NCBI RefSeq assembly: GCF_005796185.1
Contig: NZ_VAHM01000005.1
Coordinates: 1 to 64,000 of the forward strand
Source of the DNA: Pseudarthrobacter sp. NamB4
GTDB lineage: Bacteria; Actinomycetota; Actinomycetes; Actinomycetales; Micrococcaceae
Length of the DNA: 64,000 nt
Direction: 5' to 3'
Position numbers and translations under genes: made by a program. The notes under the pieces were generated by a model. The model was not told the DNA's origin and did no database searches. It was given only the letters and a program-made list of their open reading frames with translations. Below, piece by piece: positions 22,001 through 56,111 of the stretch (position 1 is its first letter; each line of letters begins with the position of its first letter).

Positions 22001-22519
22001 ATGACAGTGCTGCCGCGATCCGGAGGCCATGGACCCCTGACGGCTGCCCAGCGGCTGAGGCAGGGCGCAAACCTGGTCAACGGCACTACACTCCTTGGCC
22101 TTGCCGTTGCCGTCGCGGCCCGGACCGATCTGGCTGCAGGCCCCAGGGGCCTGCTCATTGCCGGTGAGTACCGCTGGCGACTGCCGTTCGCAGGAGCTTT
22201 TACCCTGGGAAATGTGGTTCTTTGCCGTTCCACTGCTGACGAACTACTGGCCCGGCATGAACTGCTTCGGCACGAGGAGAAGCACTCCAGCCAGTACGCC
22301 TGGTGCCTGGGCGTGCCGTTTCTACCGCTGTATTTCCTTGCCGCCGGTTGGTCAATGCTGCGGACCGGCAACCCGGGCACGTCCAACGTCTTCGAGCGGC
22401 ATGCGGGGCTCGCCGCAGGAGGCTACCCCCCCAAGGCATCCCTTCGTCATGGTCCTGCCCGGCCGGAGGTTCATGGCGTGGGCCTGCGGGGCAGGCGCCG
22501 GCGTCGGCACACGCCTTGA
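22001..22519 (+). CDS. Small HExxH metallopeptidase-like protein of unknown function
   Basis: I do not recognise a named family. The protein (172 residues from the ATG at 22001; the frame opens at 21896) has a hydrophobic N-terminal stretch near residues 25-40, an HEEKH motif at 91-95 that fits HExxH, an aromatic segment at 101-120, and an SNVFERHAGLAAGG segment with Glu132. HExxH plus a downstream Glu is the gluzincin ligand pattern. Residues 141-172 are Pro/Arg-rich and may be non-conserved. It is a plus-strand gene before the radical SAM gene. Peptidase activity is a guess from the motif. Confidence 0.6.
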   Translation: MTVLPRSGGHGPLTAAQRLRQGANLVNGTTLLGLAVAVAARTDLAAGPRGLLIAGEYRWRLPFAGAFTLGNVVLCRSTADELLARHELLRHEEKHSSQYAWCLGVPFLPLYFLAAGWSMLRTGNPGTSNVFERHAGLAAGGYPPKASLRHGPARPEVHGVGLRGRRRRRHTP

Positions 22520-22526
22520 CTTTGAT

Positions 22527-22542
22527 TCGAACATAACTTCGA
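22527..22542. promoter_or_regulatory. LexA (SOS) box before the radical SAM gene
   Basis: TCGAACATAACTTCGA matches the actinobacterial consensus TCGAAC-N4-GTTCGA at every fixed base but one. It ends 8 bases before the ATG at 22551, a position where LexA would block transcription initiation or elongation. Confidence 0.75.
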
Positions 22543-22550
22543 ATGGTGTT

Positions 22551-23657
22551 ATGAGATGGGACGCGCAGACTTTGATGCCGCCACCGGGGGAAGCTTCGGT
22601 GGGAGCCGCTCCGGCGCTCCTGCCCCTGGCGGGACTGGTGCGCTCCGTCACCACCCCGGAGTTCGCAGGCATCACTTTCCATGAGGTCACCGCCAAGTCG
22701 GTCCTGAACAGGGTGCCCGCCGGCTCCCGGATGCCGTTCGAGTGGACCATCAATCCCTACCGGGGCTGCAGCCATGCCTGCGTCTACTGCTTCGCACGCA
22801 AGACCCACACTTACTTGGATTTCGACGCCGGGCTGGACTTTGACCGGCAGGTGGTCGTCAAAGTCAACAGTGCGGAAGTGCTCCGCAAAGAGCTGGCCAA
22901 ACCGTCCTGGGGCCGTCACCAGGTTGCCCTGGGCACCAACACCGACCCCTACCAACGGGCCGAGGGCCGGTACCAGCTGATGCCGGGCATCATCACCGCT
23001 TTGGCCGAGTCAGGCACGCCCCTGTCCATCCTCACCAAGGGGACGCTGCTGGCACGGGACATTCCGCTGCTCAAAACCGCCGCCAGCCAGGTGCCGGTGG
23101 GCCTGGGGATTTCGCTGGCCATGACGGACGAGGCACTTTCGGAAGCCGTGGAGCCTGGAACGCCGGGACCGCGGGCCCGGCTCAAGCTCGTCTCCCGCCT
23201 CCGTGAAGCGGGCCTTCCATGCGGCGTCATGGCCATGCCCATCCTGCCGTGGCTCTCGGACAGTGACGAGGCCCTGGATTCCCTCTTTTCATCCCTTGCG
23301 GCAGCAGGGGCCACCGGCGTCACCGCCGGCGCCCTCTACCTCAAGCCCGGCGGCACCAGGGAGTGGTTCATGACATGGATCGCCGCCCATCATCCCGAGC
23401 TAGCCGGCCGTTACCGCCGGCTTTACGGCTCAGGCTCCTATGCCGCCAAGGAGTACCGCTCCTGGCTGGCAGGCAAAGTCCGGTACTTCAAAGCCCGGCA
23501 TGGTTTCAGCAATTCGTCCGGCTTCAGCCACAGGGACCTGGAGGACGATCCCCGGGGCGAGGAAGCTGAGTACCCCGCGGGCATCATCCCGCAAAGACCA
23601 GCGGGTACTCCAGGCTCCGGCACTCCTGCAGGCGCCAGCCAACTGACGCTGTTCTAG
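22551..23657 (+). CDS. Rv2578c-family radical SAM protein
   Basis: A 368-residue radical SAM protein. The [4Fe-4S] ligands are Cys73, Cys77 and Cys80 in GCSHACVYC, preceded by the family's NPYRGC stretch. This is the Rv2578c/SplB-like branch related to spore photoproduct lyase-type proteins; the substrate is not known. It starts at ATG 22551 with the typical MRWD beginning, directly after a LexA box, so it should be DNA-damage inducible. The C-terminal tail of about 50 residues is Gly/Pro-rich. It is convergent with the NUDIX gene. Confidence 0.88.
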   Translation: MRWDAQTLMPPPGEASVGAAPALLPLAGLVRSVTTPEFAGITFHEVTAKSVLNRVPAGSRMPFEWTINPYRGCSHACVYCFARKTHTYLDFDAGLDFDRQVVVKVNSAEVLRKELAKPSWGRHQVALGTNTDPYQRAEGRYQLMPGIITALAESGTPLSILTKGTLLARDIPLLKTAASQVPVGLGISLAMTDEALSEAVEPGTPGPRARLKLVSRLREAGLPCGVMAMPILPWLSDSDEALDSLFSSLAAAGATGVTAGALYLKPGGTREWFMTWIAAHHPELAGRYRRLYGSGSYAAKEYRSWLAGKVRYFKARHGFSNSSGFSHRDLEDDPRGEEAEYPAGIIPQRPAGTPGSGTPAGASQLTLF

Positions 23658-36083: not shown

Positions 36084-36215
36084 GACCTTAGCCCTCCTGG
36101 ACCATACTGTGCTGCCCGGATGTCTTCCCTTTGCCTGCCTGCCTTCCGGCGACGACCACCTTCCCGGCGCCGACTCGCTTCCGACAGAATCTTCGAATAC
36201 TTCAGGCACTGAGTA

Positions 36216-36231
36216 GAACACATGTTCTAAC
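36216..36231. promoter_or_regulatory. LexA box, LysM/lexA intergenic region
   Basis: TAGAACACATGTTCTA is a perfect palindrome around GAAC-N4-GTTC, the core of the actinobacterial SOS box. It is nearer the LysM gene. Confidence 0.85.
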
Positions 36232-36280: not shown

Positions 36281-36296
36281 TAGAACAAATGTTTGA
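36281..36296. promoter_or_regulatory. lexA: Second LexA box, nearer lexA
   Basis: TAGAACAAATGTTTGA keeps GAAC and most of the other half, with one change in GTTC. It lies 141 bases before the lexA start. Confidence 0.7.
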
Positions 36297-36436: not shown

Positions 36437-37171
36437 ATGGCAGCAGCAGCCGCCGGGAGCAGGGGAACCGCGCAACCGAGGAAGACCGCCAAGGGCCTTA
36501 CACCACGGCAAAAAAGGATTCTCGAAACCATCCAGCGCTCCGTCAACGAGAATGGATATCCCCCCTCGATGCGGGAGATTGGGGACATCGTTGGCCTGGC
36601 GAGCCTTTCCAGCGTCACGCACCAGCTGTCCCAGCTCGAAAAACTCGGCTACCTCCGCCGCGACCCCAAACGGCCGCGGGCCATGGAAGTACTGATGCCC
36701 CTGACCCTGGACGGTGGTGCCGCAAAGACCCCGGCACAGCCGGACAACCTGCTTTCACCGGCCTCCGCAACGGTGACGGAGCTGCCCACCGCACTGGACA
36801 CCGCCATGGTTCCCCTGGTGGGCCGGATCGCTGCGGGCGGTCCCATCCTTGCGGACCAGCTCGTCGAAGACGTCATGCCCCTCCCGCGCCAGCTGGTCGG
36901 CCAGGGTGAACTGTTCATGCTCAGGGTTGCCGGGGACTCCATGGTGGATGCTGCCATTTGCGATGGTGACTGGGTGGTGGTCCGCAGGCAGGCGGACGCA
37001 GCAAACGGCGACATCGTGGCAGCCCTTCTTGATGACGAGGCCACAGTGAAAACGTTCCGGCAGCGGGACGGGCATACCTGGCTGCTCCCCCAGAACACGC
37101 AGTACGAGCCCATCCTTGGGGACCACGCCACCATTATGGGCAAGGTCGTTTCAGTGCTCCGTTCGCTGTAG
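36437..37171 (+). CDS. lexA: LexA repressor
   Basis: The SOS master repressor, 244 residues. An N-terminal winged helix (about 20-85) with [13 protein letters not shown] precedes a S24-type autoprotease domain. The cleavage site is Ala133-Gly134 in RIAAGGPI, the nucleophile Ser168 is in GDSM, and Lys205 is in ATVKTF. The start is the ATG at 36437; the longer frame to 36293 runs through the second LexA box. It is autoregulated by the two boxes. The first 20 residues are Ala/Gly-rich. Confidence 0.97.
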
Positions 37172-45979: not shown

Positions 45980-47035
45980 CTAGAACCCGTCAACGGCCTT
46001 CAGCTTCGGGGAGTCCTTGGACTCCGGCTCCGCGGGCTTTACACCCACGCCCAGCTTTTCCTTGATCAGCCGCTCAAGTTCAGCGGCCAGCTCCGGGTTA
46101 TCGCGCAGGAACCGGCGGGAGTTCTCCATGCCCTGGCCGAGCTGGTCGCCATCGTAGGTGAACCAGGAGCCGGACTTCTTGATGATGCCGTGCTCCACGC
46201 CCATATCGATGATCCCGCCCTCGCGGGAGATGCCCTGGCCATAGATGATGTCGAACTCAGCCACCTTGAAGGGCGGGGCCATCTTGTTCTTGACGATCTT
46301 GGCCTTGGTGCGGTTACCGACCGAGTCCGCGCCTTCCTTGAGGGTCTGGATGCGCCGGACGTCGATGCGGACAGACGCGTAAAACTTCAGCGCCTTACCA
46401 CCCGTGGTGGTTTCCGGGGAGCCGAAAAAGACACCGATCTTCTCGCGGAGCTGGTTGATGAAGATGGCGGTGGTCTTGGTCTGGCTAAGGCGGCCGGTAA
46501 TTTTACGCAGTGCCTGGCTCATGAGCCGTGCCTGGAGGCCGACGTGGCTGTCACCCATATCGCCTTCAATTTCCGCGCGCGGCACCAGGGCTGCCACGGA
46601 GTCGATAACGATGATGTCCAGCGAGCCGGACCCCACCAGCATGTCCATGATCTCCAGGGCCTGCTCACCGGTGTCCGGCTGCGAGACGAGAAGGGCGTCC
46701 GTGTCCACGCCAAGCTTGGCAGCGTAATCCGGGTCCAGTGCGTGCTCGGCGTCGATGAAGGCCGCGATGCCGCCGGCGCGCTGGGCGCTTGCTACTGCGT
46801 GCAGGGCAACGGTGGTCTTACCGGAGGATTCCGGTCCGTAGATTTCAATGACCCGGCCTCGGGGCAGGCCGCCAATTCCCAGGGCAACGTCCAGGGCTAT
46901 GGAACCGGTAGGAATAACCTCGATCGGGGCGCGTACTTCATCGCCGAGCCGCATGACCGACCCTTTACCGAACTGCTTGTCGATCTGGGCAAGGGCTGCT
47001 TCGAGCGCTTTTGCACGATCCGGGGCTGCCGCCAT
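45980..47035 (-). CDS. recA: Recombinase RecA
   Basis: Drives strand exchange and triggers LexA self-cleavage. The Walker A motif GPESSGKT is at residues 67-74; the length is 351. The conserved [15 protein letters not shown] start and the [12 protein letters not shown] segment are typical. A LexA box lies 144 bases upstream. recX follows in the same unit, and an unusual gap with DUF3046 upstream keeps the promoter between the two genes. Confidence 0.98.
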
Positions 47036-47179: not shown

Positions 47180-47195
47180 CCGAACAGGTATTCGA
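47180..47195. promoter_or_regulatory. recA: LexA box of recA
   Basis: CCGAACAGGTATTCGA fits the actinobacterial SOS consensus with two changes and is very like the mycobacterial recA box. It lies between recA and the DUF3046 gene. Confidence 0.7.
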
Positions 47196-47225
47196 ACAGG
47201 AGCTCGGCGTGTCCAGGGAATCCGG

Positions 47226-56095: not shown

Positions 56096-56111
56096 TCGAA
56101 CATATATTCGA
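56096..56111. promoter_or_regulatory. LexA box before the short DUF222-like ORF
   Basis: TCGAACATATATTCGA fits TCGAAC-N4-GTTCGA except for one base. It lies in the 85-base gap between two divergent genes, 14 bases before the ORF at 55723-56082. Confidence 0.75.

Follow-up and report, generated by a model that had tools for sequence, protein, structure and literature searches.

A LexA-boxed radical SAM gene of the Rv2578c family encodes a protein with an SPL-like predicted fold, divergent catalytic residues and a putative clamp-binding tail

Introduction

The established chemistry of the radical SAM superfamily is the cleavage of SAM to a 5′-deoxyadenosyl radical; to our knowledge, very few enzymes use radical chemistry to reverse DNA damage directly. 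In spore photoproduct lyase (SPL), the thymine radical receives its hydrogen atom from a cysteine (C141 in B. subtilis, C140 in Geobacillus), and a tyrosine pair (Y97/Y99 in B. subtilis, Y96/Y98 in Geobacillus) returns it (PMC5368176). The C. acetobutylicum enzyme carries its cysteine at a different position (PMC5368176).

For several phyla, SplB-like radical SAM genes are already known to be under SOS control. LexA control is described for such genes in alpha- and betaproteobacteria (PMC3323433) and in Bacteroidetes and "several species" (PMC8565304), and an SplB-like gene is placed in the core Gram-positive SOS regulon, on the basis of a comparison in which M. tuberculosis, C. glutamicum and Leifsonia were represented (PMC7739468). 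In S. venezuelae, LexA binds a radical SAM gene, vnz_31145, whose expression rises 20-fold with mitomycin C (PMC9380542). Proteins of the damage response can also carry short motifs for the β sliding clamp, whose consensus is given as QL[S/D]LF (Dalrymple 2001, as cited in PMC3716654), and mycobacterial ImuB does not function in damage tolerance without its QLPLWG clamp motif (PMC10421592). Here, we describe a radical SAM gene of Pseudarthrobacter sp. NamB4 in which a LexA box, an SPL-like predicted fold and a terminal clamp-like motif come together.

Results

An ordinary member of the Rv2578c family

The gene lies in a 64,000-nt stretch of contig NZ_VAHM01000005.1 (positions 1 to 64,000), hereafter the window, whose relevant features are collected in Table 1. 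Its product scores 508.6 bits against the profile of the Rv2578c family (NF038135), above the curated cut-off of 430, with residues 1-319 aligned to profile positions 1-316/317, and PF04055 (radical SAM) is its sole Pfam match. The three cluster ligands sit in CSHACVYC and are the sole invariant cysteines in an alignment of 44 sequences; the earlier note's reading of a Rv2578c-like radical SAM gene with Cys73/77/80 is borne out by the profile score and this motif. The protein shares the motif and length region of the family, which NCBIfam also models in an intein-containing form (NF038136), and is an ordinary member of it, with no feature that sets this copy apart. Four relatives have an intein exactly in the cluster-binding site, inserted at the last of the three motif cysteines (CAYC followed directly by VSPSTLVLMADG).

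Table 1. Features of the radical SAM locus and of the SOS genes in the window
Feature	Position	Strand	Evidence
-35-like hexamer TTGACT	22516..22521	+	TTG[AC] upstream of -10 in aligned promoters
LexA operator (SOS box) TCGAACATAACTTCGA	22527..22542	+	Sequence match; kept in 177/190 orthologues
-10-like hexamer TCGAAT (presumed -10)	22539..22544	+	Overlaps operator right arm
Rv2578c-family radical SAM protein gene	22551..23657 (ATG to last base of stop codon)	+	ORF translation, 368 aa; NF038135 match
Cys73-x3-Cys77-x2-Cys80 motif, [4Fe-4S] cluster	22767..22790	+	PF04055 match; invariant in 44 aligned sequences
G-T129-N-T-D-P-Y-Q loop, Thr129 at SPL catalytic Cys140/141 site	22932..22955	+	Alignment
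Variable linker, residues 320-363	23508..23639	+	Mostly low confidence; unalignable
Putative clamp-binding motif QLTLF, residues 364-368	23640..23654	+	Terminal motif in relatives; consensus match
lexA, presumed regulator	36491..37165	+	TIGR00498, 223.9 bits
lexA operator-like sites TAGAACACATGTTCTA, TAGAACAAATGTTTGA	36214-36229 and 36281-36296		Box scan
recA, inducer of LexA cleavage	46058..47020	-	TIGR02012, 560.6 bits
recA overlapping box-like sites	47180-47207		Box scan

The LexA box is conserved in a fixed register

As the earlier note had stated, the box differs from the consensus at a single position and its 3′ end lies 8 nt before the ATG; compared with TCGAACNNNNGTTCGA, the change is C for G at position 11. 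Nine sites with at most two mismatches are present in the window compared with 2.0 expected, a count reached in 0/100 shuffles. Across the 3.8-Mb genome, however, one-mismatch sites number 19, against 31 for a reversed control pattern, and because the genome-wide counts do not exceed this control, a one-mismatch box would be unconvincing on its own.

Profiling of orthologues, which the earlier note had suggested as a check, is decisive here. The comparison drew on 80 close relatives and on orthologues taken more widely, from the order (198 genomes) and the phylum (296 genomes), and a box was scored as conserved if at least 10 of 12 positions matched within 80 nt upstream. Such a box is found in 177/190 orthologous upstream regions, against 0.2% of shuffled sequences, and in 166 of these promoters 7-9 nt separate its end from the start codon. 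Several regions that score below 10/12 have a near miss at the same place. The conservation spans families of the class, so the SOS control proposed earlier is strongly supported at the level of sequence. It is this fixed register in orthologues, rather than the mismatch count, that marks the box as a real operator, and LexA almost certainly represses the gene here.

Position 11 varies by lineage. It is G in none of 81 promoters of the Arthrobacter/Pseudarthrobacter group (A, C or T in 81/81) and G in 84/88 promoters outside it. The lexA boxes of the window keep G at this position. A second strong box, TCGAACATATATTCGA at 56096-56111, resembles the radical SAM box in having no G there; it lies 13 nt upstream of a short minus-strand ORF (ATG 56082, MNNPSPGIP..., about 120 aa), which is possibly a remnant of a larger protein.

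The operator overlaps a candidate leaderless promoter

Alignment of 169 promoters reveals a common pattern of CTTGAC, 17 nt, TCGAAT or TCGACT, with the start codon following after about 5-7 nt. The -10-like hexamer, which starts within the box's right arm, reads TCGAAT in 129 of these promoters and TCGACT in another 19, and TTG[AC] lies exactly 17 nt 5′ of it in 138/169. A generic sigma-70 scan did not list the TTGACT/TCGAAT promoter because it demands A at position 2 of the -10 element. Since the 6-7 nt from the -10 hexamer to the ATG leave no room for a Shine-Dalgarno sequence, the mRNA would be leaderless in most of the class, and ATG 22551 would here also be the transcription start. LexA bound to its operator would block polymerase directly at the overlapping -10.

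A different layout is seen in six orthologues, among those scoring below 10/12, of a family that is probably Streptomycetaceae (f21): their GGGAACNNNNGTTCTA sites lie 30-31 nt upstream of the ATG, and a good Shine-Dalgarno sequence, GAGGAGG, is present, in contrast to the leaderless arrangement found elsewhere. The published box sequence of vnz_31145, used as a pattern, had no match in 393 genomes of a Streptomycetaceae-like genus; vnz_31145 is a possible counterpart of the Rv2578c-family gene.

SPL-like fold with different catalytic residues

An AlphaFold2 model of the protein, built from 44 relatives, has a mean pLDDT of 85.4 and a pTM of 0.83. Its nearest solved structures are all SPL (Foldseek E 5.5e-9), with VIA-align Z scores of 20.0-20.5 to six SPL entries compared with 16.1 for the next family; the fold common to it and SplB (PDB 4fhc) superposes with an rmsd of 3.7 Å over 280 residues (Z 20.5). 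Searched against the PDB, the family sequence profile places SPL as the only family below 0.01 (E 4e-4), followed by marginal matches, and the single protein sequence has no match. The SplB-like relation claimed in the earlier note therefore holds at the level of the fold.

The alignment with SPL retains CxxxCxxC, the tyrosine before the last cysteine (Tyr79, at the SPL Tyr96 position) and a conserved Lys163. The site of the second relay tyrosine (Tyr98/99 in SPL, position 81 here) is Phe in 29/31 close relatives. At the site of the catalytic cysteine, Thr129 is present in 31/31 close relatives, and 13 distant ones have Gly, Ser, Thr, Val or Ala, never Cys; the surrounding region reads ALGTNTDP in the Rv2578c family versus FELSCYTDP in the genome's own SPL. 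The model and alignment thus describe a protein that is SPL-like in fold but not SPL by its catalytic residues. Because Thr129 replaces the hydrogen-donor cysteine of SPL, the substrate or the radical-return route would have to differ from that of SPL.

The Pfam SPL model (PF20903) does not match the protein, whereas it matches two others of the genome, the SPL-family proteins at G000:C7:84726-85781 and G000:C6:87575-88600. One of them scores 277.6 bits and has the catalytic cysteine. Neither gene has a convincing LexA box upstream, and both proteins lack the C-terminal clamp motif. In f21, one SPL-family protein carries PEQQALFGW close to its N-terminus, where QQALF may be a clamp motif.

A conserved C-terminal motif matches clamp-binding sequences

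The protein ends in ...GASQLTLF, behind a linker whose blocks from residue 321 have pLDDT values of about 44-51. The terminal QLTLF accords with a motif of the QL[S/D]LF type in an accessible position after this low-confidence segment. Short motifs of this kind can arise by chance, but a terminal QxxL[FL] is present in 1/306 ORF tails from the window, whereas Qxx[LIM][FLIM] stands exactly at the C-terminus (in a few cases with a final P) of 111/125 complete relatives. Some of the 14 that deviate, for example QLPLAL, resemble a longer clamp motif. Binding of the β clamp through the tail is probable on this pattern. Clamp tail and fixed-register LexA promoter alike appear, from the aligned sequences, as traits of the whole Rv2578c family and not of this copy alone. 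A literature search covering few subscription papers found neither a link of the family to the sliding clamp nor a description of its fixed-register promoter, and searches on Rv2578c, PA0069 with LexA, PA0069 fitness and a radical SAM clamp motif returned nothing relevant.

PA0069 proteins of other phyla share the tail and LexA boxes

The protein is also homologous to the PA0069 family (NF033668), scoring 216.8 bits over residues 42-286, below the cut-off of 360. Its loop reads GTNTDPYQRAE, compared with SGVTDPYQPVE or G[TA]NTDPYQP[IV] in that family. PA0069 members of other phyla, taken from plasmid-collection records, likewise end in a clamp-like motif: QLSLF (Paracoccus), QLSLL (Sinorhizobium), QLTMF (Azospirillum), QLRLF (Aeromonas) and QGELF (Sphingomonas), with QLDLF close to the C-terminal end in Legionella. 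In actinobacterial relatives of the PA0069 type (L217-L223), the C-terminus is QPxL[FL], in most cases followed by one extra residue.

Several of the proteobacterial genes lie just downstream of clade-specific LexA boxes, GTTCACGTAATGTTC in Paracoccus and GTTCGCTTTATGTTC in Sphingomonas (GTTCN7GTTC, the alphaproteobacterial type) and CTGTATATATAAACAG in Aeromonas (CTGTN8ACAG); the Legionella copy has no box of the types searched. On a Sphingomonas plasmid (L251, 1-2652), the PA0069 gene adjoins a dnaE gene (alpha subunit of DNA polymerase III), possibly that of the SOS polymerase, dnaE2.

Neighbouring genes

The regulator lexA, the inducer recA and the radical SAM target lie within 25 kb. The adjacent NUDIX gene runs antiparallel to the radical SAM gene and shares no operator with it; it is kept in 56/80 close relatives, mainly of the same family (Micrococcaceae) and in few outside. 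An HExxH motif is encoded upstream in 26/80 close relatives only. The earlier note had taken these two neighbours as a repair context, a suggestion that fails on the antiparallel orientation of the one and the poor conservation of the other, and an operon with either gene is rejected.

Discussion

We propose, with a probability of about 0.66, that the gene encodes an SOS-induced radical SAM enzyme that the sliding clamp recruits to DNA and that repairs a lesion other than the spore photoproduct. The locus would form a single-gene SOS unit. In the undamaged cell, LexA would occupy the operator over the -10 of the TTGAC-N17-TCGAAT promoter and block RNA polymerase; after damage, RecA-promoted cleavage of LexA would free the promoter for synthesis of an mRNA that is probably leaderless. 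In the product, a predicted SPL-fold enzyme, the [4Fe-4S] cluster on Cys73/77/80 would cleave SAM to the 5′-deoxyadenosyl radical, and the disordered tail with its QLTLF motif would dock the enzyme on the β clamp and so deliver it to forks, gaps or repair patches in the DNA, where it would most likely reverse a lesion directly by radical chemistry. That the enzyme acts on DNA damage is likely, and if it does repair DNA, the lesion is very probably not the spore photoproduct. The repair role suggested in the earlier note stands in part: its DNA-directed side gains independent support from the conserved clamp motif, but Thr129 argues against SPL proper.

The enzyme could instead be part of the SOS response but act on a substrate other than DNA, such as a nucleotide, tRNA or rRNA, or a protein, its QxxLF end being fortuitous or serving another contact. 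Enzymes that modify RNA, nucleotides and peptides share the radical SAM fold, MiaB, RlmN, viperin and RiPP maturases appear lower among the structure matches, and a NUDIX gene adjoins the radical SAM gene in Micrococcaceae. We nevertheless consider this unlikely, given that the SPL scores stand clearly above those of other families, that the clamp motif is kept in several phyla behind an unalignable linker, and that the NUDIX gene is antiparallel and no conserved neighbour beyond Micrococcaceae. The related idea that the protein repairs or sanitizes nucleotides jointly with the adjacent NUDIX and HExxH proteins draws on their proximity in the window and on how often close relatives keep the NUDIX gene; with opposite strands, no shared operator, a neighbourhood lost beyond Micrococcaceae and an infrequent HExxH motif, it is very improbable.

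A true SPL acting on 5-thyminyl-5,6-dihydrothymine would account for the fold, the cluster motif and Tyr79, yet it is improbable and disfavoured above all by the missing hydrogen-donor cysteine. The C. acetobutylicum enzyme, with its cysteine elsewhere (PMC5368176), keeps this absence from being fully decisive by itself; here, however, no invariant cysteine exists beyond the cluster motif, the Tyr98 site is mostly Phe, and the genome owns a better SPL as well as a second SPL-family protein. As for the box being a chance match upstream of a gene outside LexA control, the genome-wide counts of one-mismatch sites would allow it, but its fixed register and conservation in orthologues reject it, and we regard it as having next to no likelihood.

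Many actinobacteria and, as PA0069, proteobacteria have the family, with LexA control maintained despite differing clade operators and with a clamp tag, a spread that suggests a repair reaction of value to many bacteria. Rv2578c, the gene that gives the family its name, is that of Mycobacterium tuberculosis, to which the reaction would then extend. More tentatively, and at somewhat less than even odds, Rv2578c and PA0069 may together form one widespread replication-coupled branch, SOS-induced and clamp-riding, that performs a non-SPL radical reversal of a DNA lesion for which no direct-reversal enzyme is known. The clamp motif and the Thr129 substitution make this family of unclear function open to direct testing.

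Among known systems, the LexA-regulated splB genes (PMC3323433, PMC8565304, PMC7739468) and vnz_31145 (PMC9380542) resemble this locus in placing an SplB-like radical SAM protein under LexA, and the accessible text of those reports does not describe the fixed-register promoter and clamp motif seen here. UmuC (QLNLF, PMC3716654) and ImuB (QLPLWG, PMC10421592) are damage-induced and carry the same kind of short clamp motif, but both serve translesion synthesis, in contrast to the radical SAM enzyme described here. What we put forward as new is a reading of the Rv2578c family as a clamp-recruited, SPL-fold enzyme whose catalytic residues differ from those of SPL.
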